Below, piece after piece: positions 9,822 to 44,671 of a stretch of DNA of 64,000 bases (positions are counted from its first letter, which is position 1; the number at the start of each line of letters is the position of its first letter). A model generated the notes under the pieces. That model was not told the origin of the DNA, did not search any database, and saw nothing but the letters and a program-made list of their open reading frames with translations. The stretch covers positions 310,001 to 374,000 of the forward strand of contig CACLUR010000001.1 in NCBI GenBank assembly GCA_902610175.1. Direction: 5' to 3'. This stretch comes from an uncultured Alphaproteobacteria bacterium. GTDB taxonomy: Bacteria > Pseudomonadota > Alphaproteobacteria > HIMB59. A program made the position numbers and the translations under genes.

Positions 9822-11134
9822 GTAATAGAATAGTAATTATTGGTGCAGGAAGTACAAACTTTGGTCTGGGTATTGTTGGTGATTTTTTTAAATCCAAAAT
9901 TTTATCCGGCTCAACTTTAGTACTTCATGATATCAATCCAGAAACGCTTAAAAATACCTATGAAATTGCACTCTCTTACAAAGAAAAACTTGGTGTAGAC
10001 TTTAATATTGAGTCAACAACTTCACGATCTGATGCACTAAAAAAGGCTGATTTTTGTTTAATATCAATTGAAGTCGGTAATAGATTTGAACTGTGGGAAC
10101 AAGATTGGAAAGTGCCACTGCAATACGGCATCAAGCAAGTTTATGGAGAAAATGGAGGCGCTGGTGGATTATTTCATGCAATGCGTCAAGTTCCAGCAAT
10201 AATCAAAATATGTGAAGATATTGAAAAAATTTGCCCTGAGGCCTTTGTGTTTAGTTACTCAAATCCTATGCAAAGAATTTGCCATGCATTAAATACTCGT
10301 TTCCCAAATTTGAGAATTACTGGGTTGTGTCATGAGATTGCTTCAATGACTCGCCAGCTCCCTACACTAATGGAAACTGATTTAGATAATATTGAATTTG
10401 AAGCTGGAGGTTTAAATCATCTGAGCATTTTACTAAGTGCCAAATATAAAGACTCTGGTAAAGATGGATATCCTTCTATTAATAAAAACTTTGATAATTA
10501 TTATTCTGATTTGGTTAATGATCATGAAGGGTTTTTTTCAAATGCTGGTGCTGAGAGAGGTTTATTTTTTGAATTATTTAAAAGATATGGTTACCTCCCA
10601 ATTACAACAGATAGTCATTTAGGAGAATATATACCTTGGGCCTATAGCGTAGTAGATCATGATGGAATTTTAGACTTTTATGATAAATATAAAAAAAGGT
10701 GTTTGGCTTTTTTTTCTGATGACGGTTATGAAAAATTTTTTGATATGAGCCATCCTGAACCTCACGAAAGAGCTATACCTATTATCGAGAGTATTGTTGA
10801 AGACTTAAATATGCTTGAGCATGCTGTAAATATAAGAAACGATAATTTTATTGATTGTCTTCCAAATGATATTGTAGTCGAAGTACCAGCAATAATTAAT
10901 AAAACTGGCATACACGGAATTAAATTAGAAAACTATCCCAACTCTTTTGGCTCTCTTCTTAATTCACAAGTTGGCACGATACAATTAACAACAAAGGCTA
11001 TATTAAATGAGTCAAAACAAACAGCTATTCATGCTCTTTTAGCTGATCCGCTCGTTGAAAATCCAAACTCAGCTAGTTCTCTAGTAGATACAATGATAGA
11101 ATTTCAAAAAGATTATTTAGGATACTTGAAATAA
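9818..11134 (+). CDS. Glycoside hydrolase family 4 (NAD- and metal-dependent alpha-glycosidase)
   Basis: A 438-residue GH4 enzyme. The start chosen is the ATG in the ATGA overlap with aglG; a longer reading from 9707 would run back through the permease gene. The N-terminal Rossmann motif is IVIIGAGSTNFG, and YGENGGAGG, SYSNPMQRI, GLCHEI and GGLNHL follow. In GH4 the Cys-His pair binds Mn2+ and hydrolysis runs by oxidation at C3 with NAD+. Unlike the second GH4 enzyme here (CHSVQGT, MelA type), this one has CHEI. The substrate is therefore uncertain: an alpha-glucoside by context, but alpha-uronides are possible. Confidence 0.83.
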   Translation: MSNRIVIIGAGSTNFGLGIVGDFFKSKILSGSTLVLHDINPETLKNTYEIALSYKEKLGVDFNIESTTSRSDALKKADFCLISIEVGNRFELWEQDWKVPLQYGIKQVYGENGGAGGLFHAMRQVPAIIKICEDIEKICPEAFVFSYSNPMQRICHALNTRFPNLRITGLCHEIASMTRQLPTLMETDLDNIEFEAGGLNHLSILLSAKYKDSGKDGYPSINKNFDNYYSDLVNDHEGFFSNAGAERGLFFELFKRYGYLPITTDSHLGEYIPWAYSVVDHDGILDFYDKYKKRCLAFFSDDGYEKFFDMSHPEPHERAIPIIESIVEDLNMLEHAVNIRNDNFIDCLPNDIVVEVPAIINKTGIHGIKLENYPNSFGSLLNSQVGTIQLTTKAILNESKQTAIHALLADPLVENPNSASSLVDTMIEFQKDYLGYLK

Positions 11135-11139
11135 CATAA

Positions 11140-12468
11140 TTGGATAATTTCTCTTTTTTAAAGGATTTTCCCTCTAGTTTTATCTTTGGCACTGCAACTT
11201 CATCTTATCAAATTGAGGGAAATCAATATGGTGGTTGTGGCAAATCTATATGGGATGATTTTGCTAAAAGAAAATTAAATGGGATAGATGGCTTAAATGC
11301 TTGTAATCATTATGAATATTTTGAAGAAGATATAAAACTAATTAAAGATCTTGGGTTTAGGGCTTATCGATTTTCATTTTCATGGCCAAGAATATATCCT
11401 GAAAACAATCGAGAATTAAACAATGAAGGTGTTGATTTTTATCATAGACTGTTAGATAAAATTTTAGAAAATGGCTTAGAGCCTTTTCCTACACTTTACC
11501 ATTGGGATTTGCCAATTCGTTTTTCACACATTGAGGGTTGGGAAAACAGAGATACTTGTAAGCATTTTGCTGATTTTTCTTATTTTATATCAAAACAATA
11601 TGGTGACTTATTTAAAAAGATTGCAACCATTAACGAGCCTTGGTGTGTTTCATGGCTTAGCCATTATTTAGGTGAACATGCACCAGGTAAAAAAAATATT
11701 AAATCTGCTACAACGACTATGCACAATATTTTGTTAGCACATGGTTGGTCTGTTGAGGCTTTAAGAGTGAATAAGTCTCATGAAATAGGGATTGTATTAA
11801 ACAACCAGTATGCAGAACCCTTAGATCAACAGGATGAAAATATAAATGCAACAAAATTATTTGATAGTATTCACAATAGATGGTTTTCTGATGCTATTTT
11901 TAAAGGAAAATATCCTAAGTTAGCCTTAAGTGTTTTGGAGAAGCACTTACCCGAAAACTATGAAAGTGATTTAAAAAAAATATCTTGTGGCCTTAATTGG
12001 ATCGGTTTGAATTACTACACAAGATCGATTATAAAATTTGAAAAGTCTGAAGATAATATTAATTATAAAACACTTAGAGGATCTCTAAAAAAAACTGACA
12101 TGGACTGGGAATTTTTTCCTAAAGGATTGAGTTATTTTATAAAAAGAATAAACAATGAATATGATAATAAAATTCCAATATATATTACTGAAAATGGAAT
12201 GGCTAATAATGATAAATTGGACTCAAATGGAGAGGTTAATGACTCAGATAGAATAGAATTTTTTAATTTGCATTTGAGGGAAATTTTAAATTGTATAAAT
12301 GATGGATTACCTGTTATGGGATATTTTGCTTGGTCTCTACTTGACAATTACGAGTGGGCTTTTGGCTATTCAAAAAGATTTGGTTTAGTCTATGTAGATT
12401 TTGATAGTTATAAAAGAGTTCCAAAAAAATCCTATTACGAATTTTCAAAAAACTTGTTTCAAGTTTAA
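11140..12468 (+). CDS. bglA: Beta-glucosidase, glycoside hydrolase family 1
   Basis: A 442-residue cytoplasmic GH1 beta-glucosidase without signal peptide, starting at a TTG five bases after the GH4 stop. The N-terminal FIFGTATSSYQIEG matches the family. The catalytic acid/base is Glu166 (TINEPW) and the nucleophile Glu351 (YITENGMA). The sugar-binding HWDLP and the C-terminal SLLDNYEW-x4-SKRFGL-x2-VD are present. With the GH4 and GH42 enzymes it gives this operon both alpha- and beta-glycosidase activity, suggesting that the importer handles several short glycosides. Beta-galactosidase side activity is common in the family. Confidence 0.9.
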   Translation: MDNFSFLKDFPSSFIFGTATSSYQIEGNQYGGCGKSIWDDFAKRKLNGIDGLNACNHYEYFEEDIKLIKDLGFRAYRFSFSWPRIYPENNRELNNEGVDFYHRLLDKILENGLEPFPTLYHWDLPIRFSHIEGWENRDTCKHFADFSYFISKQYGDLFKKIATINEPWCVSWLSHYLGEHAPGKKNIKSATTTMHNILLAHGWSVEALRVNKSHEIGIVLNNQYAEPLDQQDENINATKLFDSIHNRWFSDAIFKGKYPKLALSVLEKHLPENYESDLKKISCGLNWIGLNYYTRSIIKFEKSEDNINYKTLRGSLKKTDMDWEFFPKGLSYFIKRINNEYDNKIPIYITENGMANNDKLDSNGEVNDSDRIEFFNLHLREILNCINDGLPVMGYFAWSLLDNYEWAFGYSKRFGLVYVDFDSYKRVPKKSYYEFSKNLFQV

Positions 12469-32534: not shown

Positions 32535-33647
32535 GTGGGGGCAAAAAAGTCAGATTTTTTTGATTCAAGAGATAAATATTTATCATTTGTAAATTCTACC
32601 AATGAAAAAAGTCGAATAGCTTTTCAATTAGCGAAGTATTTAAAAAATTCAAAAATTACTAAAGATTCATTTAGAATTTTTGATGCTGGGACAGGAGATG
32701 GCTCAGTTATCTGCACATTGCTATCGGCTGTTCATGACAAATTTCCTGAAGATCCAATTATAGTTGTTGGAAAAGAAATTAGTATCGATGATATTAACAG
32801 TCTTCTAAATTATCTTGGTTATAGATTTTTTGAACATAAGAATTTAGTTTTCTGTATAACAAATGCATCTTATAGAGAAATTAATGATAATCGATTCACA
32901 GATTGTAAGTTAATTAAAAAAGAATTAGTTGGAAATTCAAGTTTTAGTTTCAATCAGCAACTCATGAATATGGGTGAGGTTATAAGAAAAAATTGGGATA
33001 TAAAAGAGGATACTTCTTCAACCATATTGAGACCGAAGCAAAAGACACTGATGGTTATATATAGGAAGGATCAAAAAATTGCATTGAAGCATTTGATACC
33101 AAGTAAGTTAGAGAGTATTCCAAAGTTTTACGACTATATAATTGCATCTCAAGCTTTCAGGCTAAGATCTCCTTACGACAGAACACTTAAGCTAGTACTT
33201 ATTCCATTATTAAAAATGTTAGATGTAAAAGGTCAGCTATTTTTTATTTATTCATCCGGAAATGATTTTTCAAAAAAGCTTCTCAAATTATTCTTTCCAA
33301 AAATTAATCCCTATCAATTTAGTGATCCCAAAAAATTTGTAGAAAGCCTGAATAAAAAAATACCTCATTTTAGAAAAAAATTTAAAGTATCCATATCTTC
33401 ATTTTTATTTTCATTTATAAACCTATCATTATCCTCTAAGAAAAAATTTTCACCGATGAACTCTCTTGGATTATGGAATGCTATCACCTATGTTGGTCAA
33501 ATATCCGAAAATGAACAAAAAAGTATTAAAATAAGTATTAATTTTCTAGATAAAATTAGCAATAGTGCAAAAAAACTTAAATTGCAATTTAGTGATTATC
33601 TTTTAAGATTTGAAAAGAATAATTTTAAAAGTCATTTGGATGAGTAA
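32535..33647 (+). CDS. Putative SAM-dependent methyltransferase-like protein
   Basis: A 370-residue protein with a GTG start preceded by AGGAGA. The only clear motif is FDAGTGDGSV near residue 50, matching the SAM-binding glycine loop of class I methyltransferases. Further Rossmann-like strands follow (PIIVVGKEIS, YDYIIASQAFRLRSPYDR, GQLFFIYSSGND). Enzymatic function cannot be assigned. It overlaps the DddP-like gene by eight bases, so the two are translationally coupled and probably act in the same process. That makes a role in sulfonium or related methyl metabolism worth testing, but this is inference from position. Confidence 0.6.
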   Translation: MGAKKSDFFDSRDKYLSFVNSTNEKSRIAFQLAKYLKNSKITKDSFRIFDAGTGDGSVICTLLSAVHDKFPEDPIIVVGKEISIDDINSLLNYLGYRFFEHKNLVFCITNASYREINDNRFTDCKLIKKELVGNSSFSFNQQLMNMGEVIRKNWDIKEDTSSTILRPKQKTLMVIYRKDQKIALKHLIPSKLESIPKFYDYIIASQAFRLRSPYDRTLKLVLIPLLKMLDVKGQLFFIYSSGNDFSKKLLKLFFPKINPYQFSDPKKFVESLNKKIPHFRKKFKVSISSFLFSFINLSLSSKKKFSPMNSLGLWNAITYVGQISENEQKSIKISINFLDKISNSAKKLKLQFSDYLLRFEKNNFKSHLDE

Positions 33648-34926
33648 TTTTACAAGTAAATTTGCAGACCGTAAAATTGGCCCAAAGTTTTTCGAAACAA
33701 TTAACCAAAATTTTGAAAATCAAGTTTATAAACCTAGGCTCTACGAAGAAAAAATAGACTTCGACCGTTTACGTATGTATCGACTCAATAGAGTTTTAGA
33801 GCAACTACGATTAAATAATGTTGGTGCTTGCATATTATTTGATCCGATCAATATAAGGTATGCAACCGACAGTAGAAATATGAGTTTATTTACAATGCAT
33901 GAACTCGTGCGATTCGTATTTATTTCTGCAGAGGGAAAAGTAATACTATTTGATTATCCAAAGAGCGAGCATCTCTCAGAACATTTATGCACGATTGATG
34001 ATATTCGAGCAGTTGATAGTTGGGATTTTTTTTCAGCAAATAATTTTGTTGATAAAAATGCAAAAAAATGGGCTGGCACTGTTCAAGATTTAATGAGAGA
34101 GAATTCACCTGATAATAATTGCCTTGCAATAGATGTTTCCGATCCAGTTGGAATACAAATGTTACTTAAACAGTTTAATGTTAAACTAGTGAACGCCCAA
34201 AAGTATATTGAGCTTGCAAGATCTATTAAATCTGATGATGAGTTAATTTGCATGAAAGCTTCTATTGAGACTGCTGAAAAAGGAATGTGGCTAATGAGAG
34301 ACAAACTTCAGGCAGGTATGACAGAAGAAGAACTTTGGTCATACATGCATAAAGTCAATATTGAAAATGGTGGGGAATGGTTTGAGACTCGTCTTTTAGT
34401 ATCTGGACCACGAACAAATCCTTGGCTTCAAGAATGCAGTAACAGAGTCATTGAGTCTGGAGATTTAGTTGCTTTTGACACAGATATGGTTGGACCGTAC
34501 GGTTATTGTGCTGATATCTCTCGAACCTTTGTTGAGGGCAATCGTCTAAATGATGAACAAAAAAGGCTCTACTCAATGTCTTTAGAGCATATTAATCATA
34601 ACAAATCTCTGATTAAAGCTGGTGTAAATTTTAGAGAATTTGCAGAAAAATCCTGGAAATTGCCTGATAATTGCTACGATAATCATTATCCATGCATTAT
34701 TCATGGTGTCGGTCTTTGTGATGAATGGCCACTTGTTGCTTACCCAAATAGAGATTTTAGCAACGCGGATTACTCAGCCAATTTTGAGGAAAATATGACT
34801 ATCTGTGTAGAGAGTTATGTTGGTGAAGTTGGCGGCAAAGAAGGAATTAAACTTGAGGATCAGTTCGTTGTAACCAAAGATGGCTTGAAGCAACTAAGTT
34901 CATTTCCTTATGAGATAGATATCTAA
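33640..34926 (+). CDS. dddP: DddP-like DMSP lyase (M24 peptidase fold)
   Basis: A 428-residue protein of the M24 aminopeptidase fold with the hallmarks of DddP, which cleaves dimethylsulfoniopropionate to DMS and acrylate. Conserved stretches are FDPINIRYATDS, GGEWFETRLLVSGPRTNPW, AFDTDMVGPYGYCADISR and HGVGLCDEWPLVAYP. The candidate metal ligands are Asp280, Asp282, Asp292, His355, Glu391 and Glu406, with catalytic Asp361. Their spacing matches the Ruegeria enzyme as I recall it (His371/Asp377, Glu406/Glu421). The start at 33640 overlaps the preceding gene. DddP-related M24 proteins without lyase activity exist, so activity is likely but unproven. Confidence 0.78.
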   Translation: MSNFTSKFADRKIGPKFFETINQNFENQVYKPRLYEEKIDFDRLRMYRLNRVLEQLRLNNVGACILFDPINIRYATDSRNMSLFTMHELVRFVFISAEGKVILFDYPKSEHLSEHLCTIDDIRAVDSWDFFSANNFVDKNAKKWAGTVQDLMRENSPDNNCLAIDVSDPVGIQMLLKQFNVKLVNAQKYIELARSIKSDDELICMKASIETAEKGMWLMRDKLQAGMTEEELWSYMHKVNIENGGEWFETRLLVSGPRTNPWLQECSNRVIESGDLVAFDTDMVGPYGYCADISRTFVEGNRLNDEQKRLYSMSLEHINHNKSLIKAGVNFREFAEKSWKLPDNCYDNHYPCIIHGVGLCDEWPLVAYPNRDFSNADYSANFEENMTICVESYVGEVGGKEGIKLEDQFVVTKDGLKQLSSFPYEIDI

Positions 34927-35248: not shown

Positions 35249-36142
35249 TTACTTCATTCCAGTCATAGTAATACCTTCAACAAATCTTTTTTGAGCAACT
35301 ATGAAAGCCACAATAAGTGGAATGGTAACAGTAACAATCGACGCCATCATAGGTCCAAATTCATCACTATCTATACCACCTCTAAATTCTCTAATACCAA
35401 GTGGTGGTGTAAATAAATCACGATTACCTGTGATAACAATCCTAGGCCAAAAATAATCATTCCAGTGAGCAACAACTGAGAAAATTGCAAAAGCTAGTAA
35501 CGCTGGTATAGCTACAGGAAGCATGACTTTCCAAACAATAGAATATTCTCCCATACCATCCATCCTTGCAGCATCAATTAGTTCATCTGGTACTGTCATA
35601 AAGAATTGCCGCATTAGAAAAATTCCAAACACAGATATCGTCCACGGTATTATTAAGGCTGCATAGGTATCCACCAGTCCAGCTTTTGCTAACATGACAT
35701 ACAACGGTAAAGCGATTGCATGTACAGGTATTAATAAACAGAACAGAACCATTGAAAAGACAAATTCCCTGCCTTTAAACCTAAGCTTGGCTAGTGCATA
35801 AGAACATGGAAGTGCAATCAATACTTGTATTAAAAAGATTGAAACAGTCACAATCAAACCGTTCATTAAATACCTTGGAATTGGGGCTTTTTTGAATGCA
35901 AACCAGAAATTGTATTTATAAGGTCGCATTGTGCATACCTCTTCAGTGTATCCGTGCTTAGTACAAACTGGGAATGTTTGAATCTCCTGTGCTCCGACTA
36001 AACCTCCAGATATTGACTGAATTTCTTGTTGAGATTTAAGTGACATTGAAACCATCATGTAGAATGGGATCAACACAATTAATGCTCCAATGATGAGCAG
36101 CCCATGCTTCCATGACTCTCCAATATAATGTCTAGCTAACAT
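35249..36142 (-). CDS. ABC transporter permease (UgpE-like), phosphonate island
   Basis: A CUT1/UgpE-type permease of about 297 residues from ATG 36142; a TTG at 36166 would add eight residues and overlap the upstream gene. The EAA loop is ELIDAARMDGMGEYSIVWKV. A periplasmic insertion of about 40 residues after the first helix contains two cysteines (PVCTKHGYTEEVCT) and may form a disulfide. It is the last gene of a leftward ATPase-permease-permease operon. Its stop is directly adjacent to the SMR gene stop on the other strand. Confidence 0.86.
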   Translation of the reverse strand: MLARHYIGESWKHGLLIIGALIVLIPFYMMVSMSLKSQQEIQSISGGLVGAQEIQTFPVCTKHGYTEEVCTMRPYKYNFWFAFKKAPIPRYLMNGLIVTVSIFLIQVLIALPCSYALAKLRFKGREFVFSMVLFCLLIPVHAIALPLYVMLAKAGLVDTYAALIIPWTISVFGIFLMRQFFMTVPDELIDAARMDGMGEYSIVWKVMLPVAIPALLAFAIFSVVAHWNDYFWPRIVITGNRDLFTPPLGIREFRGGIDSDEFGPMMASIVTVTIPLIVAFIVAQKRFVEGITMTGMK

Positions 36143-36143
36143 T

Positions 36144-37100
36144 TTAGTAATGTACCCTTTTCTCAATCACATATCTTTGGAAGAATGTTAGCAAGATTAT
36201 AAAAATTATAAACACAACAGTAATCGCTGCACCAATACTTGTAATATTTTGTTGAATTGCTTTTTCAAAAATTGCGTACATCATTACATACGTTGTTTTG
36301 GCAGGACCTCCTTTTGTAAGAATTTCAATTGTGTCAAATACTTGAAATGACCTTATTGTCGTTATGGTAACAACAAAAAGAGTTGTAGGACCTAACATTG
36401 GCCAAGTTACAAGTTTAAATTGTTCCCAAGTTGACTGAGCACCATCCATTTCTGCAGCATGATACAATTCTCTTGGTATGCTTGTTAAACCAGCTAAGTA
36501 TAACACCATATTAAATCCAAAGGCTTGCCATACTCCAATAAAACAAATTGTCCAAATCGCTGTTTTTTTATCTTTGAGCCAATACGGGAAATCCATATTG
36601 TTAGCACAAGCAACACTGTACCAACTGTCCTCGGAACTAACCCACGGTAGCCAATGAAAACCTAAAATAAATTCTCTAATACCTCCGCATCCATTGGCAA
36701 GAAAAGAATTTATTATTCCAAGAGTTGGATGAAGAGTAAATTCCCAAGCAATAGCCATTGCCAATAAAGTAGCCATCACCGGAAGAAAGAAAATTGTTTT
36801 ATAAATATCAGCTCCAAATCGAAGAGAGTTGAGCATAATGGCTGCAACTAAACCTAATACCACTGAAACAGGGACAACTATTAACACGTAAGTTGCCGTT
36901 GATATAATCATTTTTATATAAGTTTTTCTGGAGAACATTTTTTCATAATTCTCCGTACCTACCCATTCGAAACTAGAATTACCAAGATTGTAATTAGTAA
37001 ATGAGATACCTCCGGCTAAAAAAATTGGAAGTATTAATATGACAATCATTAGTATGATTGCAGGCCAAACAAACCAAATATGTGCTTTAGAGTGGTGCAT
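36144..37100 (-). CDS. ABC transporter permease (UgpA-like), phosphonate island
   Basis: A 318-residue permease with first helix WFVWPAIILMIVILILPIF and EAA loop ELYHAAEMDGAQSTWEQFKL. Between helices (about residues 130-175) there is an unusually long periplasmic segment with two cysteines and many aromatics (NGCGGIREFILGFHWLPW, VACANN). The partner permease also carries a two-Cys loop, suggesting a channel adapted to its own binding protein at 41165. It begins two bases after the ATPase gene. Confidence 0.86.
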   Translation of the reverse strand: MHHSKAHIWFVWPAIILMIVILILPIFLAGGISFTNYNLGNSSFEWVGTENYEKMFSRKTYIKMIISTATYVLIVVPVSVVLGLVAAIMLNSLRFGADIYKTIFFLPVMATLLAMAIAWEFTLHPTLGIINSFLANGCGGIREFILGFHWLPWVSSEDSWYSVACANNMDFPYWLKDKKTAIWTICFIGVWQAFGFNMVLYLAGLTSIPRELYHAAEMDGAQSTWEQFKLVTWPMLGPTTLFVVTITTIRSFQVFDTIEILTKGGPAKTTYVMMYAIFEKAIQQNITSIGAAITVVFIIFIILLTFFQRYVIEKRVHY

Positions 37101-37102
37101 AT

Positions 37103-38218
37103 TTATCGGATACGCTCACCGGATGTTTCAAAAAGCATAGCCTCTGCATGAGAAGGACTTATTCTAACTGTTTCCCCATTTGAAATTAGTCCAGCTGGTG
37201 AGCCTCTGACTATGATCTTAGAGTCAGATTGATCAACTTGAACATGGTAAAATATATCCGAACCAAGGTTTTCTCTGTATGAAACTGCAGCCTCAAATGC
37301 AGGTTTGTTTGAGTCTTTTGTAATTTCTAAATGTTCTGGCCTCACAGCAACTAAAGCTTTTTGACTATTAGTATTAAATTTTCTTTCAAGCTTAATACCC
37401 ATAAATTCAACAGAACCATCAGAGCTAATCTGAGCAGCAAATGTGTTAATCTTTGGGCTACCGACAAATTCTGCAACCCTTAAAGATGATGGATTATTAT
37501 AAACCTCACTTGGTGTATCAAGTTGCAAAAGTTCCCCATCAATCATTACAGCCATTCGAGTTGACATTGTGAGTGCTTCAGCTTGATCATGTGTCACATA
37601 AATGAAAGTGGTCTTTAAAGAATTATGAAGCTCAGATAGTTCAGATCTCATATGAACTCTTAATGCAGCATCAAGATTTGATAAAGGTTCATCCATTAAG
37701 AATGCAACTGGTTCTCTTACCATCGCTCTTCCTAGTGCCGCTCTTTGTCTTTGACCACCTGATAGTTGACCTGGCTTCCTATCAAGTAGTTCTGTTATTT
37801 TTAAAGTTTCAGATGTTTTAAAAACAAGGTCATCAATTGATTTCTTTTTTTCTTTTCTACTAGGTACAAAATTACCAACTAGAGGCAACCTCTCTACAAA
37901 ACTATAGTCTCTTAATTTCAAAGGTGTTTCTAGATTTTTTCTGACAGTCAGGTGCGGGTAAAGAGCGTAAGATTGGAAAACCATTGCTAAGTCTCTCTTG
38001 CTAGCTCTGGTGCTGTTAACATTCTTATCATCAATAATTACATCGCCACTATTTTGTTGCTCTAATCCAGCAATAATTTTTAACAAAGTGGATTTTCCAC
38101 AACCGGACGGACCGACTAATGTTAAAAATTCACCATCTTGGATATCAAGGCTTAGTTGTTTAAGCACCTCAGTTGAGCCAAATGACTTATTGATGTTCTT
38201 TAAAGAAATTGTCCCCAT
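37103..38218 (-). CDS. ABC transporter ATPase (UgpC/MalK type), phosphonate island
   Basis: A 371-residue ATPase. Walker A is [10 protein letters not shown], the Q-loop lies in [11 protein letters not shown], the signature is [14 protein letters not shown], Walker B is [13 protein letters not shown] and the switch His lies in YVTHDQAEA. There is a C-terminal TOBE region. Relative to AglK it has an insertion of about 20 residues after the Q-loop (LRDYSFVERLPLVGNFVPSR). It heads the leftward importer operon, divergent from the PhnA gene, and is the second of only two such ATPases serving three permease pairs in the window. Confidence 0.9.
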   Translation of the reverse strand: MGTISLKNINKSFGSTEVLKQLSLDIQDGEFLTLVGPSGCGKSTLLKIIAGLEQQNSGDVIIDDKNVNSTRASKRDLAMVFQSYALYPHLTVRKNLETPLKLRDYSFVERLPLVGNFVPSRKEKKKSIDDLVFKTSETLKITELLDRKPGQLSGGQRQRAALGRAMVREPVAFLMDEPLSNLDAALRVHMRSELSELHNSLKTTFIYVTHDQAEALTMSTRMAVMIDGELLQLDTPSEVYNNPSSLRVAEFVGSPKINTFAAQISSDGSVEFMGIKLERKFNTNSQKALVAVRPEHLEITKDSNKPAFEAAVSYRENLGSDIFYHVQVDQSDSKIIVRGSPAGLISNGETVRISPSHAEAMLFETSGERIR

Positions 38219-38300
38219 CTATTTTTATTCCTCAAAACTAAAATAGTTCTGATTAAGACATTTTAAAAGTAAATTTGTAATATTTATGTTAAGACTTTAT

Positions 38301-38332
38301 GAACAAATTTTAAAATAATCAAAAATTTGTTC
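38301..38332. promoter_or_regulatory. Long inverted repeat in the divergent promoter of the phosphonate island
   Basis: GAACAAATTTT (38301-38311) and AAAATTTGTTC (38322-38332) are perfect 11-base arms around a 10-base AT-rich centre; arm centres are 21 bases apart, two helical turns. The repeat lies in the 136-base gap between the importer ATPase gene (leftward) and phnA (rightward), 22 bases before the phnA ATG. It is well placed to bind a dimeric regulator controlling both operons. No regulator gene is adjacent. Confidence 0.6.
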
Positions 38333-38354
38333 TTTGTAGAGAGCAGTTATAATT

Positions 38355-39590
38355 ATGAGTGATAAAATTGACATTAATAAAAGACATTATAATAAGTCAC
38401 TTACTTCAACTGTAGTAGTTATATGCCTCGATGGTAGTCAAAAAGAGTATATTGATATCGCCTCTTCAAAAGGATTGACACCAAATCTTGATAAAATATT
38501 GGAAAATGGCCAATATCTGATGGCTAACAGTGCTATTCCTAGTTTTACAAACCCTAACAACATTTCGATAGTCACAGGGCAGCCTAGTGATGTTCATGGA
38601 ATAAGTGGTAATTTCTTTTATACCCCATCAACCGGTGAAGAAGTGATGATGAATGATCCACAATATTTAAGAGCTCCAACTATTTTTGAGAAATATTATA
38701 ATGAAGGTTATAAAATAGCAGTAATCACTGCTAAGGATAAATTAAGAACTCTTTTAGGTAATGGTTTAAAATTTAATGAAGGAAGAGCAATCTGTTTTTC
38801 ATCAGAAAAATCAGATCAGGCCACTCTCAGTGAAAATGGTATAGAAAATATTAATGACTGGATTGGAATGAAAGTACCTGAAGTATATTCTCAGGATCTA
38901 TCAGAATTTGTTATGGCTGCTGGGGTAAAATTACTTGAGGAATTTAATCCTGACATTATGTATTTATCTACCACTGACTTTATTCAACACAAATATGCAC
39001 CTGGAGATAAAGAAGCAAATGATTTTTATCAGATGTTTGATAAGTATGTCAGTAAAATTTGTAGTAATGGGAATTCGGTTGTTATCACTGCAGATCATGG
39101 AATGAAGTCTAAAGCAAATATTAATGGAGAACCTAATGCCATCTTCCTTCAAGATTATTTAGATGACCAAATGGGTAAAGATGAGGCTAAAGTAATACTT
39201 CCAATTACTGACCCTTATGTAGTTCATCATGGTTCACTGGGATCGTTTGCCACAATATATGTAAAAGATAAATCAAAAATTGATGAAACAATCAGCAAAA
39301 TATCATCAATTAAAGAAATTGAAGTAGTTGTTAAACAAGAAGAAGCATGTAGAGAATATAGGCTACCTTCAGATAGAATAGGTGATATCGTATGCATGTC
39401 ATCCGAAGATATGACAATTGGTACCTCAAAAGCTAATCATGATCTTTCAAAATTAAAGGAACCCCTTAGATCTCATGGAGGTCATCATGAAAGAGAAGTT
39501 CCTTTTATTTCTAATAAAAAACTAAACATTGCCAAAGATCAAAGTTTAAATAACTATGATGCATTTTTTTATGCTATTAATGGAGCTTAA
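38355..39590 (+). CDS. phnA: Phosphonoacetate hydrolase
   Basis: A 411-residue alkaline-phosphatase-superfamily enzyme that splits the C-P bond of phosphonoacetate to acetate and phosphate. Di-zinc ligands and nucleophile are in place: Asp26, Thr65 (IPSFTNPNN), Asp208 and His212 (TTDFIQH), Asp247/His248 (TADHGM) and His374 (RSHGGHHE). Each is three residues short of the Sinorhizobium PhnA positions as I recall them (29, 68, 211, 215, 250, 251, 377), a very strong match. The aldehyde dehydrogenase that makes its substrate starts two bases later. Confidence 0.92.
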
Positions 39591-39592
39591 TC

Positions 39593-41032
39593 ATGGCTGA
39601 TAAAATTATTAATGAGGGTATGAGGATTGGTGGAAAAACTGTTCACACCGATAACAAGATTGATGTTATCTATCCCTTCACAGGTAAAGTTATAGGCAAA
39701 GTACCAGCTGGCACAGCAGAACATGCTCAAAAAGCCTTTGATATTGCAGCAAATTATAAACCTAATTTATCTAGATATGATCGTCAAAAAATACTTCAAA
39801 AGACTGCTGAAACACTTGTTGAGAGAAAAGAACAAATCTCTGATCTAATTTCACTTGAGTCTGGGCTATCGAAACAAGATACGCTTTATGAAGTTGGTAG
39901 AGCCTTTGATGTATTTTCTCTTACTGCTCAGCTTTGTATCCAGGATGACGGAGAAATTTATTCTTGTGATTTAACACCTCATGGAAAACAAAGAAAAATA
40001 TTTACAATTAGAGAACCACTTAACACTATATCTGCAATCACTCCATTTAATCATCCTTTAAATATGGTTGCTCACAAAATAGCTCCATCAATAGCAACTA
40101 ACAACTGTACTGTTTGTAAACAAACTGAATTGACCCCTTTAACAGCTATGCTACTAGCAGATATTTTATATGAATGTGGCCTTCCTCCAGAAATGTTTTC
40201 AATTTTAACAGGATGGCCTGAAGACATTGGGAATGAAGTAATTAAAAATAAGAATATAGATTTAATTACTTTTACAGGAAGCGTTGGTGTTGGAAAACTG
40301 ATAGCTGAAAATGCAGGTTACAAAAGAACTGTTTTAGAGTTAGGTGGAAACGACCCTTTAATAGTTTTGAGTGACTTAGATGATGATGATTTAAATAAAG
40401 CAGCTGATCTAGCAATCATGGGAGCAACAAAAAACTCTGGTCAAAGATGCACTGCTGTAAAAAGAATATTAGTTCAAGAATCAGTTGCTGATAAATTTGT
40501 CGAGCTTGCTTTGGAAAAAGCAAAAGCAATAAAATTTGGTGATCCCATGGATATTAATAATCAGTTGGGCACAGTAATTAATAAAGAGGCAGCAAGTATG
40601 TTTAATGACAGAGTAAATAAAGCTGAACAGGATGGTGCAAAAATTCTTTATAACCCTGGGGTCCAAGAAGCTCTTGTGCCGCCAATTTTTATAGACAACG
40701 TTAATTATAAATCAGAACTTGTTGTTGAAGAAACCTTTGGTCCAATTGTGCCTGTCATAAGAGTTCCCAATGATGATGAAAAAGTAATGGAAATTTCAAA
40801 TTCAACGGCCTTTGGTTTGTCATCAGGTGTTTGTAGTAACGATTTTAGAAGAATTAAAAAATACATAAGCGGTCTTAATGTGGGCACAGTTAATATTTGG
40901 GAAGTGCCCGGTTACAGAATTGAGATGTCACCTTTTGGCGGAATAAAAGACTCAGGATTAGGCTATAAAGAGGGTGTAATAGAGGCTATGAAAAGTTATA
41001 CAAATGTAAAAACCTTCTCATTACCTTGGTAA
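39593..41032 (+). CDS. phnY: Phosphonoacetaldehyde dehydrogenase
   Basis: A 479-residue NAD(P)-dependent aldehyde dehydrogenase with general base Glu249 (VLELGGNDP) and catalytic Cys286 ([11 protein letters not shown]). The cofactor segment [10 protein letters not shown] and the C-terminal [16 protein letters not shown] are intact. Adjacency to PhnA (two bases) identifies the likely substrate: phosphonoacetaldehyde oxidised to phosphonoacetate, as in the PhnWAY pathway. PhnW (the 2-aminoethylphosphonate transaminase) is absent here, so the aldehyde must come from another source, possibly the alcohol dehydrogenase at 43559. Confidence 0.85.
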
Positions 41033-41164
41033 TTAATAGCTTTTAGGAATTATTCACAGATTTTTTCTCACACATACTGATTATTTATACTTTGCTTTAA
41101 AAATTTAACTTATTCTTAACATTAAGGATTTAATAATTAATTATTATTATTTTAAGGAGGGACT

Positions 41165-42400
41165 ATGAAAAAAGTAATCTTAGGATTTTTTGCATCAGTT
41201 TTCGCATACAACGCTAATGCGGTAGAAATTGAATTTGCATATCCTTATTCAGGTTTGTTCGATGTGACATACCAGGCAATTATGCCAGAGTTTGAAAAAG
41301 CTTATCCTGACATTAAAGTTAAGTTCAGAGCAACTTATGAAAACTATGAAGATGCTACTGCTACTATACTAAGAGAGTCAACATCAGGAAACTTACCTGA
41401 TATCACCATGCAAGGTCTTAATAGACAAGCACCTTTAGTAGACAAAGGTATCGCTTTATCTTTAGAGCCTTTCATTGCTAATGAGCCAGATTTTGCAAAA
41501 GACGGTTATCATGAAGCTATGTTGAGCTTATCTACCTTTGGAGGAGAGGTTTATGGCTTGCCATTTTCAGTATCAACTCCAGTTGGTTACTACAACATGG
41601 ATCTTTTAGCAAGTGCTGGTGTTAGCAGCATTCCATCAAATTGGGATGAAGTCATTGACGCTTGTAATAAATTAGAAGCTGCAGGACACGGTACACTTTA
41701 CTTTGGATGGAATATTACAGGTAACTGGTTCCATCAAGCTCTAATGCATAGCCAAAATGTTCCAATGGTTAAAGATGGAGCTGTTAATATGGGAGGAGAT
41801 GCTGGTCTAAAAACTTTAGAACAAATGAAAGATATCATGGGTGGCTGTAATATGCCTAACTATTCTATTGCTGACGGACAAGCTGCGTTTAATGCAGGTA
41901 CTATTGGTATGATGTTTTGGAGTACTAGTAGTTTAGGCTCTGTTGAAGCTGCAAAAGCTGACTTTGAACTAAAGACTGCGCCTTTCCCAGGAATACCTGG
42001 TGTTAATGGTGGAACTCCAGCTAGACTACCTGCCGGTGGTAACGCAGCGATGTTAGTTACTACTTCAGATGATCCTGAAAGAGTACAAGCGGCATGGACA
42101 TTTTTAAAGTTTATCACATCAGGTGTAGGAGCAGCTGCTGTTGCAGAAACAACAGGTTACGTTCCTCCTAACAAAGCTGCAAATGACCTGTTAGGTGATT
42201 TTTATGATGCAAACCCCAACAAGTTAACTGCTGTTAATCAGCTGCCTTTGTTAGCTGATTGGTTCGCATATCCTGGAGAAAACGGTCTTGCTGTGACTCA
42301 GGTAATCTATGACTATACTGAGACCATTGCTACAGGTGACGCCGACGACATGGGCGATCTTCAGGAAGAAATGATGGAGGAAATTGAAGACTTAATGTAG
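41165..42400 (+). CDS. ABC transporter substrate-binding protein (UgpB-like), phosphonate island
   Basis: A 411-residue binding protein with signal peptide (MKKVILGFFASVFAYNANA) and a strong AAGGAGGG ribosome site. The mature start VEIEFAYPYSG and the segments GNLPDITMQGLNRQ and TWTFLKFITS-type C-lobe are UgpB-like. UgpB relatives bind sn-glycerol-3-phosphate and its diesters, so a phosphonate alcohol or phosphonate ester is a plausible ligand. The C-terminus is strikingly acidic (MGDLQEEMMEEIEDLM). It lies in the rightward phn operon, apart from its permeases. A terminator-like hairpin follows it. Confidence 0.84.
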   Translation: MKKVILGFFASVFAYNANAVEIEFAYPYSGLFDVTYQAIMPEFEKAYPDIKVKFRATYENYEDATATILRESTSGNLPDITMQGLNRQAPLVDKGIALSLEPFIANEPDFAKDGYHEAMLSLSTFGGEVYGLPFSVSTPVGYYNMDLLASAGVSSIPSNWDEVIDACNKLEAAGHGTLYFGWNITGNWFHQALMHSQNVPMVKDGAVNMGGDAGLKTLEQMKDIMGGCNMPNYSIADGQAAFNAGTIGMMFWSTSSLGSVEAAKADFELKTAPFPGIPGVNGGTPARLPAGGNAAMLVTTSDDPERVQAAWTFLKFITSGVGAAAVAETTGYVPPNKAANDLLGDFYDANPNKLTAVNQLPLLADWFAYPGENGLAVTQVIYDYTETIATGDADDMGDLQEEMMEEIEDLM

Positions 42401-42434
42401 GTCTTTTCAATTCCGTTTATCATTAGATTTTTAA

Positions 42435-42468
42435 ACAGCAGCTAGTATACTGGCTGCTGTTTTTTTTT
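42435..42468 (+). terminator. Rho-independent terminator after the binding-protein gene
   Basis: ACAGCAGC (42435-42442) and GCTGCTGT (42453-42460) form a perfect 8-bp GC-rich stem, followed by an unbroken T tract to 42468. This is the clearest intrinsic terminator in the window. It ends only two bases before the ATG of the MetE-like gene at 42471, which therefore has no Shine-Dalgarno sequence of its own. Confidence 0.85.
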
Positions 42469-42470
42469 AA

Positions 42471-43553
42471 ATGAGCATCAAAACTACAACCATTGGGGCT
42501 TATCCAAAACCTAATTACACACCTATAAGAGATTGGTTTCTCCAAGATAAATCTGACGAAGAAAAAAAACAATCCAAGGGATTGTTATCAAATTGGGATC
42601 CCAAAAGTGAAGACCATAAAGTATATGAAGAGAAAGATGAGGAAAAAGAAAAACTATTCTTAAAAGCTATTGAAGAAGTAATTCTTGATCAGACAAGTAG
42701 CGGAATAGATATCCCCACAGATGGTGAAGTAAGGCGAGAAAACTATATTTTTTATCAATTGAGATTTTTTAATGGGGTAAGCTTTGAACACTTAACGACT
42801 AAATCAGTCAGGAAAGGAGCTTTTGAAGCAACACTCCCAACAATTACAAGTAAAGTTTCAAATAAATCATTACGATTAGTAGATGATTGGAAATCTGCAC
42901 AGCAGTTTACTAATAACCCAGTGAAAATAACTATACCTGGTCCTATGACAATAACTGACTCCATTGCTGATGACTATTATAATGATCCCAAAAAAATGGG
43001 TTATGATCTAGCTTTATGTATTAGTAATGAAGTTAAGGCTCTATCCGAAGCTGGTTGTCAATACATTCAAATTGATGAACCAGTGTTCGCCAGAAAACCA
43101 GAAGAAACACACGATTATGGTATGGAAAATTTAGAAAGAGCAATGCATGGAATACTAAAAGAAACTCAAAAAGCTTGTCATATTTGCTGCGGTTATCCTA
43201 ACTCGCTTGACTCAGAACACTACAAAAAAGCAGATCTAGATGCATATGATAAAATTGCTGACTTAGTTGAAGACTCTAGTATAGACGAAGTTTCTTTGGA
43301 AGACTCTCACCGACCTTTAGATTTAAAATTATTAGAAAAATTTAAAAAAACCAAAGTTATTATGGGTTTGATTGATGTAGCTAAAAGTCGTATGGAAAGT
43401 GTCGAGGAAATTCAAAAAAGGATCAGAGAAGTTCTTGAGCATATTGATGAGGAAAGATTAATTGCTGCTCCTGATTGTGGTCTAGGGTTTTTTGATAGAA
43501 ATCAAGCAAAACAAAAAATGCAAATTCTCTCAAAAGCTGTTAAAAATCTCTAA
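42471..43553 (+). CDS. MetE-like (core, C-terminal-domain-only) methyltransferase
   Basis: A 360-residue protein matching only the catalytic C-terminal domain of cobalamin-independent methionine synthase; full MetE is about 750. The start TTTIGAYPKP, PGPMTITDS, IQIDEPVF and the zinc ligands His237-x-Cys239 (CHICCG) and Cys336 (APDCGLG) are present, with a ligand Glu probably in DEVSLED. Such core proteins may act as methionine synthases with a donor other than methyl-folate, or as other methyl transferases. The ATG directly follows a terminator T tract, so it may be read from its own leaderless transcript. The donor is unknown. Confidence 0.75.
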   Translation: MSIKTTTIGAYPKPNYTPIRDWFLQDKSDEEKKQSKGLLSNWDPKSEDHKVYEEKDEEKEKLFLKAIEEVILDQTSSGIDIPTDGEVRRENYIFYQLRFFNGVSFEHLTTKSVRKGAFEATLPTITSKVSNKSLRLVDDWKSAQQFTNNPVKITIPGPMTITDSIADDYYNDPKKMGYDLALCISNEVKALSEAGCQYIQIDEPVFARKPEETHDYGMENLERAMHGILKETQKACHICCGYPNSLDSEHYKKADLDAYDKIADLVEDSSIDEVSLEDSHRPLDLKLLEKFKKTKVIMGLIDVAKSRMESVEEIQKRIREVLEHIDEERLIAAPDCGLGFFDRNQAKQKMQILSKAVKNL

Positions 43554-43558
43554 ATCTT

Positions 43559-44671
43559 ATGTGGGAATATTATAATCCGGTAAATGTTATTTTTGGTTCG
43601 GAAAAATTTAGTGAAATTGAACATATAATAAGTAATCGAAAGTACATTCTTGTTACCCATCCTGATGATAACTTTGATACGTACAGAGAGTTTTTTAACA
43701 ATTTATCAAATAAGCCTCTAGAAATCTTTGATGATGTTCAACCAAATCCAGACTATCAAGATTTAATTTCTGTAGGGGAAAAATTTTCAAAAATAGAAAG
43801 TCAAATTGATACAGTTGTTGCTCTTGGAGGCGGCTCTGTCATGGATACGGCCAAATTACTTGCAGCTTTTAAAGGTGAAAATAAATATTTAAATGATTTT
43901 GTAAGAAATAAAAAATCAGCTTACGTTCAAGATCCAAAAAAAATTATAGCTATACCTACTACTTCGGGCACATCGAGTGAACTTACGTGTTGGGCTACAG
44001 TCTGGGATAAAGAATATAAAAGTAAATTTTCATTAGCAGATAAATCTTTATATCCTGAAATATCAGTTATTGACCCTAAGTTAATGATCAACAAGCCAAA
44101 AAATCTGACTATTTCTACTGGTCTTGATGCATTGTCCCACTCCTTAGAAAGCATTTGGAATGTAAACTCAAATCCGATTTCAACATTTCATGGAATTGCA
44201 GGTGCTCAAACCGTGATCGATACACTTCCAAAACTTGTAAATGATTTAAATAACATAGAGTTGAGAACTTTAATGGCTAAAGCTTGTGTTCATGCAGGTC
44301 TAGCTTTTTCAAATACTAAAACTGCAATAGCACATAATATTTCATACCCGATAACAATTAATTTTAATGTTCCACATGGAATAGCTTGTTCTTTTACTTT
44401 GCCGACAATAATGAGGAGTCTGATTGGCCAAGATGAAAAAACAGAAAAATCCCTAGAAAAAATTTATAATGTCGATCTCATTGAGAGTTCAAAAAGACTA
44501 TCTGAGACATTGAGAATTCTTGAAGCACCATTAAATTTAAATGAAATTGGAATACCAAAAATTGAATGGGATAAATATGTTGAGGATGCTTTTCAAGGTG
44601 AGAGGGGAAAAAATTTCATTGGAAATAAAATCTCATTTGATAAAGCGTGTTCTGAGATGAATTTCTTCTAA
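43559..44671 (+). CDS. Iron-containing alcohol dehydrogenase, candidate 2-hydroxyethylphosphonate/phosphonoacetaldehyde oxidoreductase
   Basis: A 370-residue group III (Fe/Zn) alcohol dehydrogenase. The NAD motif is ALGGGSVMD, and the metal ligands are Asp190, His194 (GLDALSHSLES), His259 (IAHNISYP) and His273 (VPHGIACSF), with normal family spacing. The start WEYYNPVNVIFG resembles phosphonoacetaldehyde reductases of phosphonate biosynthesis (PhpC type). In this catabolic setting it could run in reverse, oxidising 2-hydroxyethylphosphonate to the substrate of PhnY. Family assignment is firm; the substrate is inferred. It overlaps trxA tail-to-tail by four bases. Confidence 0.78.
   Translation: MWEYYNPVNVIFGSEKFSEIEHIISNRKYILVTHPDDNFDTYREFFNNLSNKPLEIFDDVQPNPDYQDLISVGEKFSKIESQIDTVVALGGGSVMDTAKLLAAFKGENKYLNDFVRNKKSAYVQDPKKIIAIPTTSGTSSELTCWATVWDKEYKSKFSLADKSLYPEISVIDPKLMINKPKNLTISTGLDALSHSLESIWNVNSNPISTFHGIAGAQTVIDTLPKLVNDLNNIELRTLMAKACVHAGLAFSNTKTAIAHNISYPITINFNVPHGIACSFTLPTIMRSLIGQDEKTEKSLEKIYNVDLIESSKRLSETLRILEAPLNLNEIGIPKIEWDKYVEDAFQGERGKNFIGNKISFDKACSEMNFF

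Follow-up and report, generated by a model that had tools for sequence, protein, structure and literature searches.

How can a phosphonate enter the PhnY-PhnA pathway in a genome in which the aminotransferase PhnW is not found? The question is raised by a gene cluster at positions 35,249 to 44,671 of a 64,000-nucleotide stretch of DNA (the window; assembly GCA_902610175.1, contig CACLUR010000001.1, positions 310,001 to 374,000) from an uncultured alphaproteobacterium of the order HIMB59, probably a marine bacterium. The cluster is divergent, with UgpE-, UgpA- and UgpC-like genes of an ATP-binding cassette (ABC) importer on the minus strand, and phnA, phnY, UgpB-like, MetE-like and iron-containing alcohol dehydrogenase (Fe-ADH, hereafter ADH) genes on the plus strand. 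An earlier note on this DNA had proposed that the ADH oxidizes 2-hydroxyethylphosphonate (2-HEP), and that PhnY and PhnA complete its degradation. The genes it listed are all present, as open reading frames with the coordinates it reported; the MetE-like gene (42,471–43,553), which ends 5 bp upstream of the ADH gene, had been overlooked.

We consider it likely that the cluster encodes a hydrolytic pathway for 2-HEP or a 2-HEP derivative, in which the ADH replaces PhnW. In this route, a compound would be taken up by the ABC importer, and the ADH would convert 2-HEP and NAD+ to phosphonoacetaldehyde, as its context, phylogeny and residues suggest. By strong homology, PhnY would then oxidize phosphonoacetaldehyde to phosphonoacetate, and PhnA would hydrolyze the latter to acetate and phosphate. 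The ADH would thus stand in the place of PhnW, and the UgpBAEC-like importer together with the MetE-like protein may be a lineage-specific addition, whose likeliest use, tentatively, would be the uptake and release of a 2-HEP derivative.

The PhnA-PhnY core and its entry enzyme

PhnA (38,355–39,590, plus strand) and PhnY (39,593–41,032, plus strand) are separated by only 2 bp, as adjacent as previously described, and both exceed the curated cut-offs of their families. PhnA scores 486.2 bits against 407.55 for TIGR02335 and aligns over its full length with the phosphonoacetate hydrolase 3szy (E 2.5e-162); PhnY scores 758.7 bits against 635.65 for TIGR03250 and matches 4i3t (E 4.7e-236). In agreement with the complete set of zinc ligands claimed for PhnA, its ligand motifs are found at D26, T65, D208, H212, D247, H248 and H374, among which are the zinc-binding residues of the family. 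PhnY has the motif SGQRC at residues 282–286, which presumably includes the catalytic Cys. The lysines of the AKDK motif of characterized PhnA are also kept in the window protein (a role for two PhnA lysines is given in PMC10574752). Given the strong homology to characterized enzymes, the assignments of PhnA and PhnY are secure.

The same two enzymes, here both over their curated cut-offs, belong to the PhnW-PhnY-PhnA hydrolytic pathway for 2-aminoethylphosphonate (2-AEP) of the S. meliloti type. The window genome (1.385 Mb in 16 contigs, 94.6% complete) differs in that it has no match to PhnW (TIGR02326) at E 0.001, and the Fe-ADH occupies the entry position; judged by the presence of PhnW in the genome, the 2-AEP pathway is not found here. 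PhnX likewise gave no match in this genome at E 0.001, nor did an HpnW-like flavin adenine dinucleotide (FAD) oxidase from the same genus, a query used without a positive control. In a set of 150 genomes that includes this one, searched for PhnW at the same E value, PhnW exceeds its cut-off in 80, all from the sister family. The window's genus contributes 52 genomes, many of them incomplete, and PhnW is over its cut-off in none. That PhnW is missing from the window had already been remarked on in the earlier note.

Within the genus, PhnA is present in 26 of the 52 genomes, and in 24 of these an enzyme that could feed the PhnA-PhnY core is visible, which is never PhnW; in the other two the contig ends first, within the MetE-like gene (G015) or within PhnY, with UgpA and UgpC upstream (G046). 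A full ADH accompanies 17 of the 26 clusters, and two more (G036, G043) show only the start of the ADH near a contig end. The partial ADH of G036 (191 amino acids) may be a broken gene, since its reading frame is closed by a stop codon with 241 bases of the contig still to come. In the remaining five genomes (G002, G014, G018, G029, G037) the PhnA-PhnY core is the same as in the window, but an FAD oxidoreductase of amine oxidase type, similar to TIGR03364 "HpnW", and a PhnS2-type importer replace the ADH, the MetE-like gene and UgpBAEC; EamA-like and HAD proteins are also encoded at these five loci (L066–L070). One of the five HpnW-like proteins was scored with TIGR03364 (344 bits, cut-off 285), and the other four are its homologs. 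From these arrangements, the HpnW-like oxidoreductase would be a third feeder into the PhnA-PhnY core.

Across the 150 genomes, ADH and PhnA occur together in 78, ADH alone in four, PhnA alone in 35 and neither in 33, counting ADHs with E of at most 7.6e-64, a list that leaves out the PepM-Ppd-linked protein of G012 (205 bits). In all but three of the 78 genomes, 75 in number, the two genes share a contig and a strand, with no more than 5.3 kb between them. The MetE-like gene (at least 70% identity) is found in 77 genomes; 74 of these have the ADH, and in the other three (G015, G036, G043) the MetE-like gene is near a contig end. In the mapped set of 40 loci and the window, wherever the module is present, UgpEAC is upstream of PhnA and the binding protein, MetE-like and ADH genes are downstream of PhnY. 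The importer, the MetE-like gene and the ADH are one module around PhnA-PhnY. Eight genomes with the ADH lack the MetE-like gene at this identity: in three (G049, G059, G141) this coincides with contig ends, and in five (G082, G084, G091, G102, G140) the ADH directly follows PhnY, and the mapped loci show neither UgpEAC nor the binding protein nor the MetE-like gene. Because these five genomes keep the ADH alone after PhnY, the ADH appears tied to PhnY-PhnA, with the importer and the MetE-like gene as the addition.

The dehydrogenase and its relatives across proteobacteria

The ADH (43,559–44,671, plus strand), a proposed 2-HEP:NAD+ oxidoreductase, has the metal ligands Asp-His-His-His and the fold of group III Fe-ADHs, the identity it had been given before. 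Its best model is TIGR03405 (NCBIfam "Phn_Fe-ADH/PsrA"), a family coupled to a phosphonate gene neighborhood, such as the window ADH has. We scanned genomes of the class and of the phylum with this model and obtained strong matches in 11 of 385 (E 1e-70) and 11 of 398 (E 1e-90), respectively, the window genome included in both. A scan of named genomes gave, among the matches listed, 80 loci, generic Fe-ADHs among them; ten were close relatives, eight of these ten outside the order (L125–L128, L131–L134). A plasmid search contributed nine records. For comparison of gene neighborhoods we used 34 loci outside the order, that is, 25 of 28 flanked loci plus the nine plasmid loci; L123, L236 and L256 were removed as PepM-Ppd biosynthesis loci, the in-order loci L129 and L130 are not among the 34, and L124, whose context is unsettled, enters no count. 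The 34 are not all independent, since several are closely related at the genus or species level (L118/L119, L251/L252, two Vibrio pelagius plasmids), and contig ends truncate some of the flanks.

PhnA or PhnX lies beside the ADH in 18 of the 34 loci, and a PhnD-type binding protein in 11 more (weakly in L125, 110 bits); of the remainder, two have only a phosphonate LysR regulator, one has a Ugp system and two have no reference gene. These labels were assigned by BLAST, and a few of the counted loci are themselves among the references; curated models confirmed the PhnA of L122 and the PhnX of L131 and L134. By comparison, PhnA, PhnX or PhnD was found in none of 70 flanked loci of other Fe-ADHs, a single one of which (L135) has PepM and Ppd. 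PhnW was found in none of the 34 flanks with references that recovered five of five known distant PhnW genes, and none is annotated in the seven annotated plasmid stretches, two other plasmid records carrying no annotation there. The gene orders are varied: lysR-psrA-phnDCEE-phnA-phnY in Leisingera thetidis, psrA-phnA-phnY in Ensifer, phnA-ADH-phnY in Variovorax and phnDCE-psrA-phnX in Comamonas. The ADH clade is thus found with PhnA-PhnY or PhnX, and with PhnW not beside it, in alpha-, beta- and gammaproteobacteria. Five genomes with the ADH and PhnA or PhnX show no PhnW match at E 1e-60, the threshold used for the class and phylum genomes; four of them (G520, G721, G789, G598) consist of one contig each and the fifth (G701) of 140. 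In other genomes with the ADH, PhnW is encoded at a distance, as in G523 and G747, where it is about 12 kb away. As a separate observation, the aldehyde dehydrogenase at 10,510–11,952 of the PhnA-ADH cluster of G520 (L122) is not PhnY by cut-off (256 versus 636 bits); its best model is BADH (437 bits, cut-off 669), and the PhnY step may be filled there by another family.

In a 60-row tree, the window ADH, nine in-order ADHs and the ADHs of the 34 outside loci form one clade of 44 rows (support 100/100). Outside it fall the PepM-linked ADHs L123, L135, L236 and L256, as well as L124 and 11 other Fe-ADHs, three of them from the window genome itself; L193, L173 and L202 were outside both the tree and the residue comparison. 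The same result had come from an earlier, 44-row tree, with a phosphonate-linked clade of 26 rows (95/96). The order's ADHs join that of G520 with support of 100/99 in the earlier tree and 87/97 in the 60-row tree; L236 has a very long branch in both, and its own placement is unsure. We rejected the possibility that the ADH is a generic enzyme for lactaldehyde, butanol or ethanol, given that its clade is phosphonate-linked and apart from the other Fe-ADHs compared, so that the grouping with lactaldehyde or butanol dehydrogenases considered in the earlier note was not observed. PhnX-linked and PhnA-linked rows interleave within the clade (e.g., L131 and L249 with PhnX among L247, L250, L262 and L265 with PhnA). 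We therefore also rejected the ADH as a scavenger of PhnX-made acetaldehyde: the clade sits with PhnY-PhnA as well, where no acetaldehyde is formed.

The members of this clade include the proteins named "iron-containing alcohol dehydrogenase PsrA" under TIGR03405 and in RefSeq, from Leisingera, Ensifer, Agrobacterium and Comamonas plasmids. They keep the same company, PhnA-PhnY or PhnX, but with PhnDCE where the window cluster has UgpBAEC-like and MetE-like genes. Some members of the TIGR03405 family are named phosphonoacetaldehyde reductase in RefSeq, and the open-access literature gave no source for the name PsrA. NCBIfam already encodes the link of an Fe-ADH with phosphonate genes, which is the known part of our result. 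The best solved relative of the window ADH is the sulfoacetaldehyde reductase BkTauF (6jko), with 28% identity and matching key residues. The two share the fold, the metal-site positions and the pairs T257/T255 and F265/Y263 (BkTauF/window), and the substrate of BkTauF is likewise a C2 aldehyde with an anionic group; however, it is a sulfonate, and the enzyme is from a gut bacterium.

W145 and F250 (window numbering) are present in all 44 rows of the clade, whereas the four PepM-linked rows have Phe and Ile at these positions. From the alignment, this pair may be a marker separating consumers from producers. Any role for R349 would be a guess based on how well it is conserved. One genome of the window's genus (G012) carries a PepM-Ppd-Fe-ADH set (L236, 8016–11,428), while its relatives carry the putative 2-HEP consumer; this set probably makes 2-HEP.

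Importer, MetE-like protein and flanking genes

The importer genes lie on both sides of the gap between UgpC and PhnA, as had been noted. On the minus strand are the UgpE/MalG-like permease (35,249–36,166; PF00528), a distant relative at 128 bits (cut-off 297), the UgpA/MalF-like permease (36,144–37,100; 99.6 bits, cut-off 335), whose gene overlaps the former by 23 bp, and the UgpC/MalK-type ATPase (37,103–38,218; PRK11650, 382.6 bits, cut-off 432). On the plus strand, the UgpB-like solute-binding protein of the CUT1 type (41,165–42,400) scores 66 bits (cut-off 411); none of the four thus reaches the cut-offs of the UgpBAEC glycerol-3-phosphate importer. The shared promoter once placed between the two arms amounts to a divergent gap of 136 bp (38,219–38,354). 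It may hold such a promoter, which is unproven because promoter-like matches in the region are no commoner than in shuffled sequence (37 found, 43.2 expected). Terminator-like sites number nine (5.6 expected), and include a strong hairpin on the plus strand between the UgpB-like and MetE-like genes (42,433–42,462; a 13-pair stem with six G-C pairs and a T run), by which the MetE-like and ADH genes may form a separate or attenuated transcript.

The idea that a UgpB-like protein would suit 2-HEP as its ligand is not borne out. The arginine-bearing C-terminal segment of UgpB, which we take to be ligand-binding, is not conserved, SRGLRFGS of a UgpB over the cut-off aligning with PGENGLA; moreover, clusters elsewhere often use PhnD-type importers. 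The binding protein has many conserved aromatic residues, and its structure model, built from three sequences (predicted local distance difference test score 36.6), is unusable for a reading of the ligand. In other bacteria, clusters with this ADH encode a different ABC importer together with a phosphodiesterase (in Variovorax) or a CehA/McbA metallohydrolase (in Ensifer); these genes would fit the uptake of 2-HEP derivatives. One gene run in G150 (L121, 4349–10,548) holds a UgpB over the cut-off (569 bits), Ugp-like permeases and an ATPase, together with an SpdA-like phosphodiesterase and an Fe-ADH of the phosphonate clade.

The MetE-like protein (42,471–43,553, plus strand) is a "core" zinc-thiol alkyltransferase-type protein. 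Its closest solved relative is the core methionine synthase MesD (3rpd), but it scores 209.3 bits with PRK09121, presumably the model that covers MesD, below the curated cut-off of 392. It also differs in having Ala (IGAYP), where the paralog L227 has Ser, at what we presume to be the position of E. coli Ser433 (homocysteine carboxylate). The zinc ligands His-Cys-Glu-Cys are kept (H237, C239, E277 and C336, invariant in 18 of 18 rows; for the MesD set, see PMC7857596), and no MesX model was among the matches of the ten window proteins scanned. At seven of ten fetched loci of relatives about 50% identical, an ABC importer of the Pot, PhnS2 or peptide type is nearby, the peptide-type call resting on gene sizes. 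Another paralog (L228, 6100–8689) has as its neighbor a PehA-like hydrolase of phosphoric/sulfuric esters (411 bits, cut-off 900). Because of these importers and this neighbor, the wider MetE-like family may be tied to imported compounds.

Upstream of the cluster, the window encodes a protein of 370 amino acids with the motif FDAGTGDG (32,535–33,647), with no Pfam match at 1e-8 and no NCBIfam match at 1e-12. In the window's genus its homologs are upstream of the cluster, whereas many sister-family loci have them immediately following the ADH or PhnY. Next to it is a DddP-like protein of the M24 peptidase family (33,610–34,926), which flanks the cluster in loci of the genus; we rejected it as a dimethylsulfoniopropionate lyase (369 bits, cut-off 600).

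Substrate and direction of the dehydrogenase

Phosphonoacetaldehyde is the only intermediate common to the PhnX, PhnYA and PepM-Ppd contexts, and the ADH therefore most likely interconverts phosphonoacetaldehyde and 2-HEP. From its neighbors in the window, the direction is most likely that of 2-HEP oxidation. Several observations weigh against this reading. The ADH scores 385.1 bits with TIGR03405, under the curated cut-off of 423.7, and so we do not count it as a member, although it is nested in a supported clade together with sequences that exceed this cut-off. The PepM-linked ADH of G680 scores close by (368 bits), so the score by itself does not separate catabolic from biosynthetic roles. 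The clade is uncommon (10 of 384 other genomes of the class and 10 of 397 of the phylum, some PepM-linked), 16 of the 34 outside loci show neither PhnA nor PhnX, two of these without any reference gene, and the direction proposed for BkTauF is reduction. Neither the importer nor the MetE-like protein is explained by free 2-HEP, and the searches of the window genome for other feeders covered PhnW, PhnX and HpnW-like proteins, with the PbfA lyase outside them. Finally, PhnW is over its cut-off in 57 of the 64 ADH-bearing genomes of the sister family, where most mapped loci have the PhnA-PhnY core with PhnW some genes away; it is 1.5–2.7 kb beyond the ADH in eight mapped loci showing both and 8.9–9.9 kb from it in G137, G132 and G084. 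Since PhnW is in the same neighborhood in many genomes, the ADH could serve another purpose in that family. The earlier note had named phnW or phnX always near the ADH in relatives as a sign against its proposal, and this sign is partly seen, in the sister family. With PhnW over its cut-off in no genome of the genus, and unmatched in the five distant genomes, we read PhnW and ADH in the sister family as two entries into what would be one pathway. The ADH-PhnY-PhnA sequence proposed at the outset is strongly supported by the comparative evidence, with this proximity of phnW speaking in part against it.

It seems unlikely that the ADH works in the reducing direction, turning excess phosphonoacetaldehyde into excreted 2-HEP while nitrogen is kept from 2-AEP, as proposed for TauF with taurine. 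The role of BkTauF for the sulfonate and the joint presence of PhnW and ADH in the sister family agree with such a function, but no PhnW is over the cut-off in the genus, no other known source of phosphonoacetaldehyde was found in the window genome, the five distant genomes have the ADH and PhnA or PhnX with no PhnW match, and operons of importer, ADH and PhnX exist. We hold it improbable that 2-AEP is degraded through an unrecognized aminotransferase, oxidase or lyase encoded elsewhere, leaving the ADH to handle an unrelated alcohol from the importer's ligand. Such an enzyme could be of the PbfA type, which the searches left out, and phnY with phnA alone has been called a partial 2-AEP pathway in the survey PMC11366302; yet across proteobacteria, and with different importers, this ADH clade goes together with phosphonate genes, and five genomes keep the ADH beside PhnY with neither UgpBAEC nor the MetE-like gene in the mapped loci.

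Far less probable is that the ADH is a biosynthetic, PhpC-like phosphonoacetaldehyde reductase. Although the window ADH shares T147, W149, N201, T255, Y263 and R349 with all four PepM-linked Fe-ADHs, these four fall outside the 44-row clade and lack W145 and F250, the neighbors are PhnA and PhnY, and neither PepM nor Ppd was matched by any of the ten window proteins scanned, to which the search for PepM was limited. Action of the module on a sulfonate such as isethionate is equally remote: the similarity of the ADH to BkTauF and a distant match of PhnY to the sulfoacetaldehyde dehydrogenase SafD (321 bits, cut-off 700) would suit it, but PhnA and PhnY pass phosphonate-specific cut-offs and PhnX-linked ADHs exist. 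A doubtful extension of 2-HEP oxidation itself is that, in the order, the ADH module serves from uptake to phosphate in the use of a 2-HEP ester or conjugate that dissolved polysaccharide has released. Uptake would be of the CUT1 type, the MetE-like zinc enzyme would remove an alkyl or sugar-like group with a thiol as the acceptor, and the ADH, PhnY and PhnA would finish the route without carbon-phosphorus (C-P) lyase and hence without ethylene. We know of no such thiol transfer for phosphonates.

The cluster combines known enzyme families in a new way, as a variant of the PhnYA route with a predicted function, and this remains a well-supported hypothesis drawn from comparison of genes. No catabolic 2-HEP dehydrogenase, nor an entry by 2-HEP oxidation, was found in the open-access literature searched, subscription papers being outside its scope. 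In PMC12366243, the dehydrogenase PbfF was inactive when tested on HEP. The flexible phosphonate islands of PMC10734472 were rejected as the same cluster, being C-P lyase islands. According to PMC11366302, 30% of "Ca. Nemonibacter" genomes have phnY and phnA but lack the first step, a state described there as a partial 2-AEP pathway, and at one station the transcripts exceeded the reference level of that study. If "Ca. Nemonibacter" includes the window's genus, the window cluster is a likely explanation of this partial pathway. In addition, the survey in PMC9381506, which checked the biosynthesis gene phpC by other phosphonate genes nearby, may count some 2-HEP consumers as producers, and W145/F250 versus Phe/Ile may help to separate them. 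According to PMC5649143, marine dissolved polysaccharide contains 2-HEP esters, and the use of 2-HEP documented there is by C-P lyase, with release of ethylene. If our reading is true, the hydrolytic route entered by the ADH would be a second, ethylene-free fate of 2-HEP.

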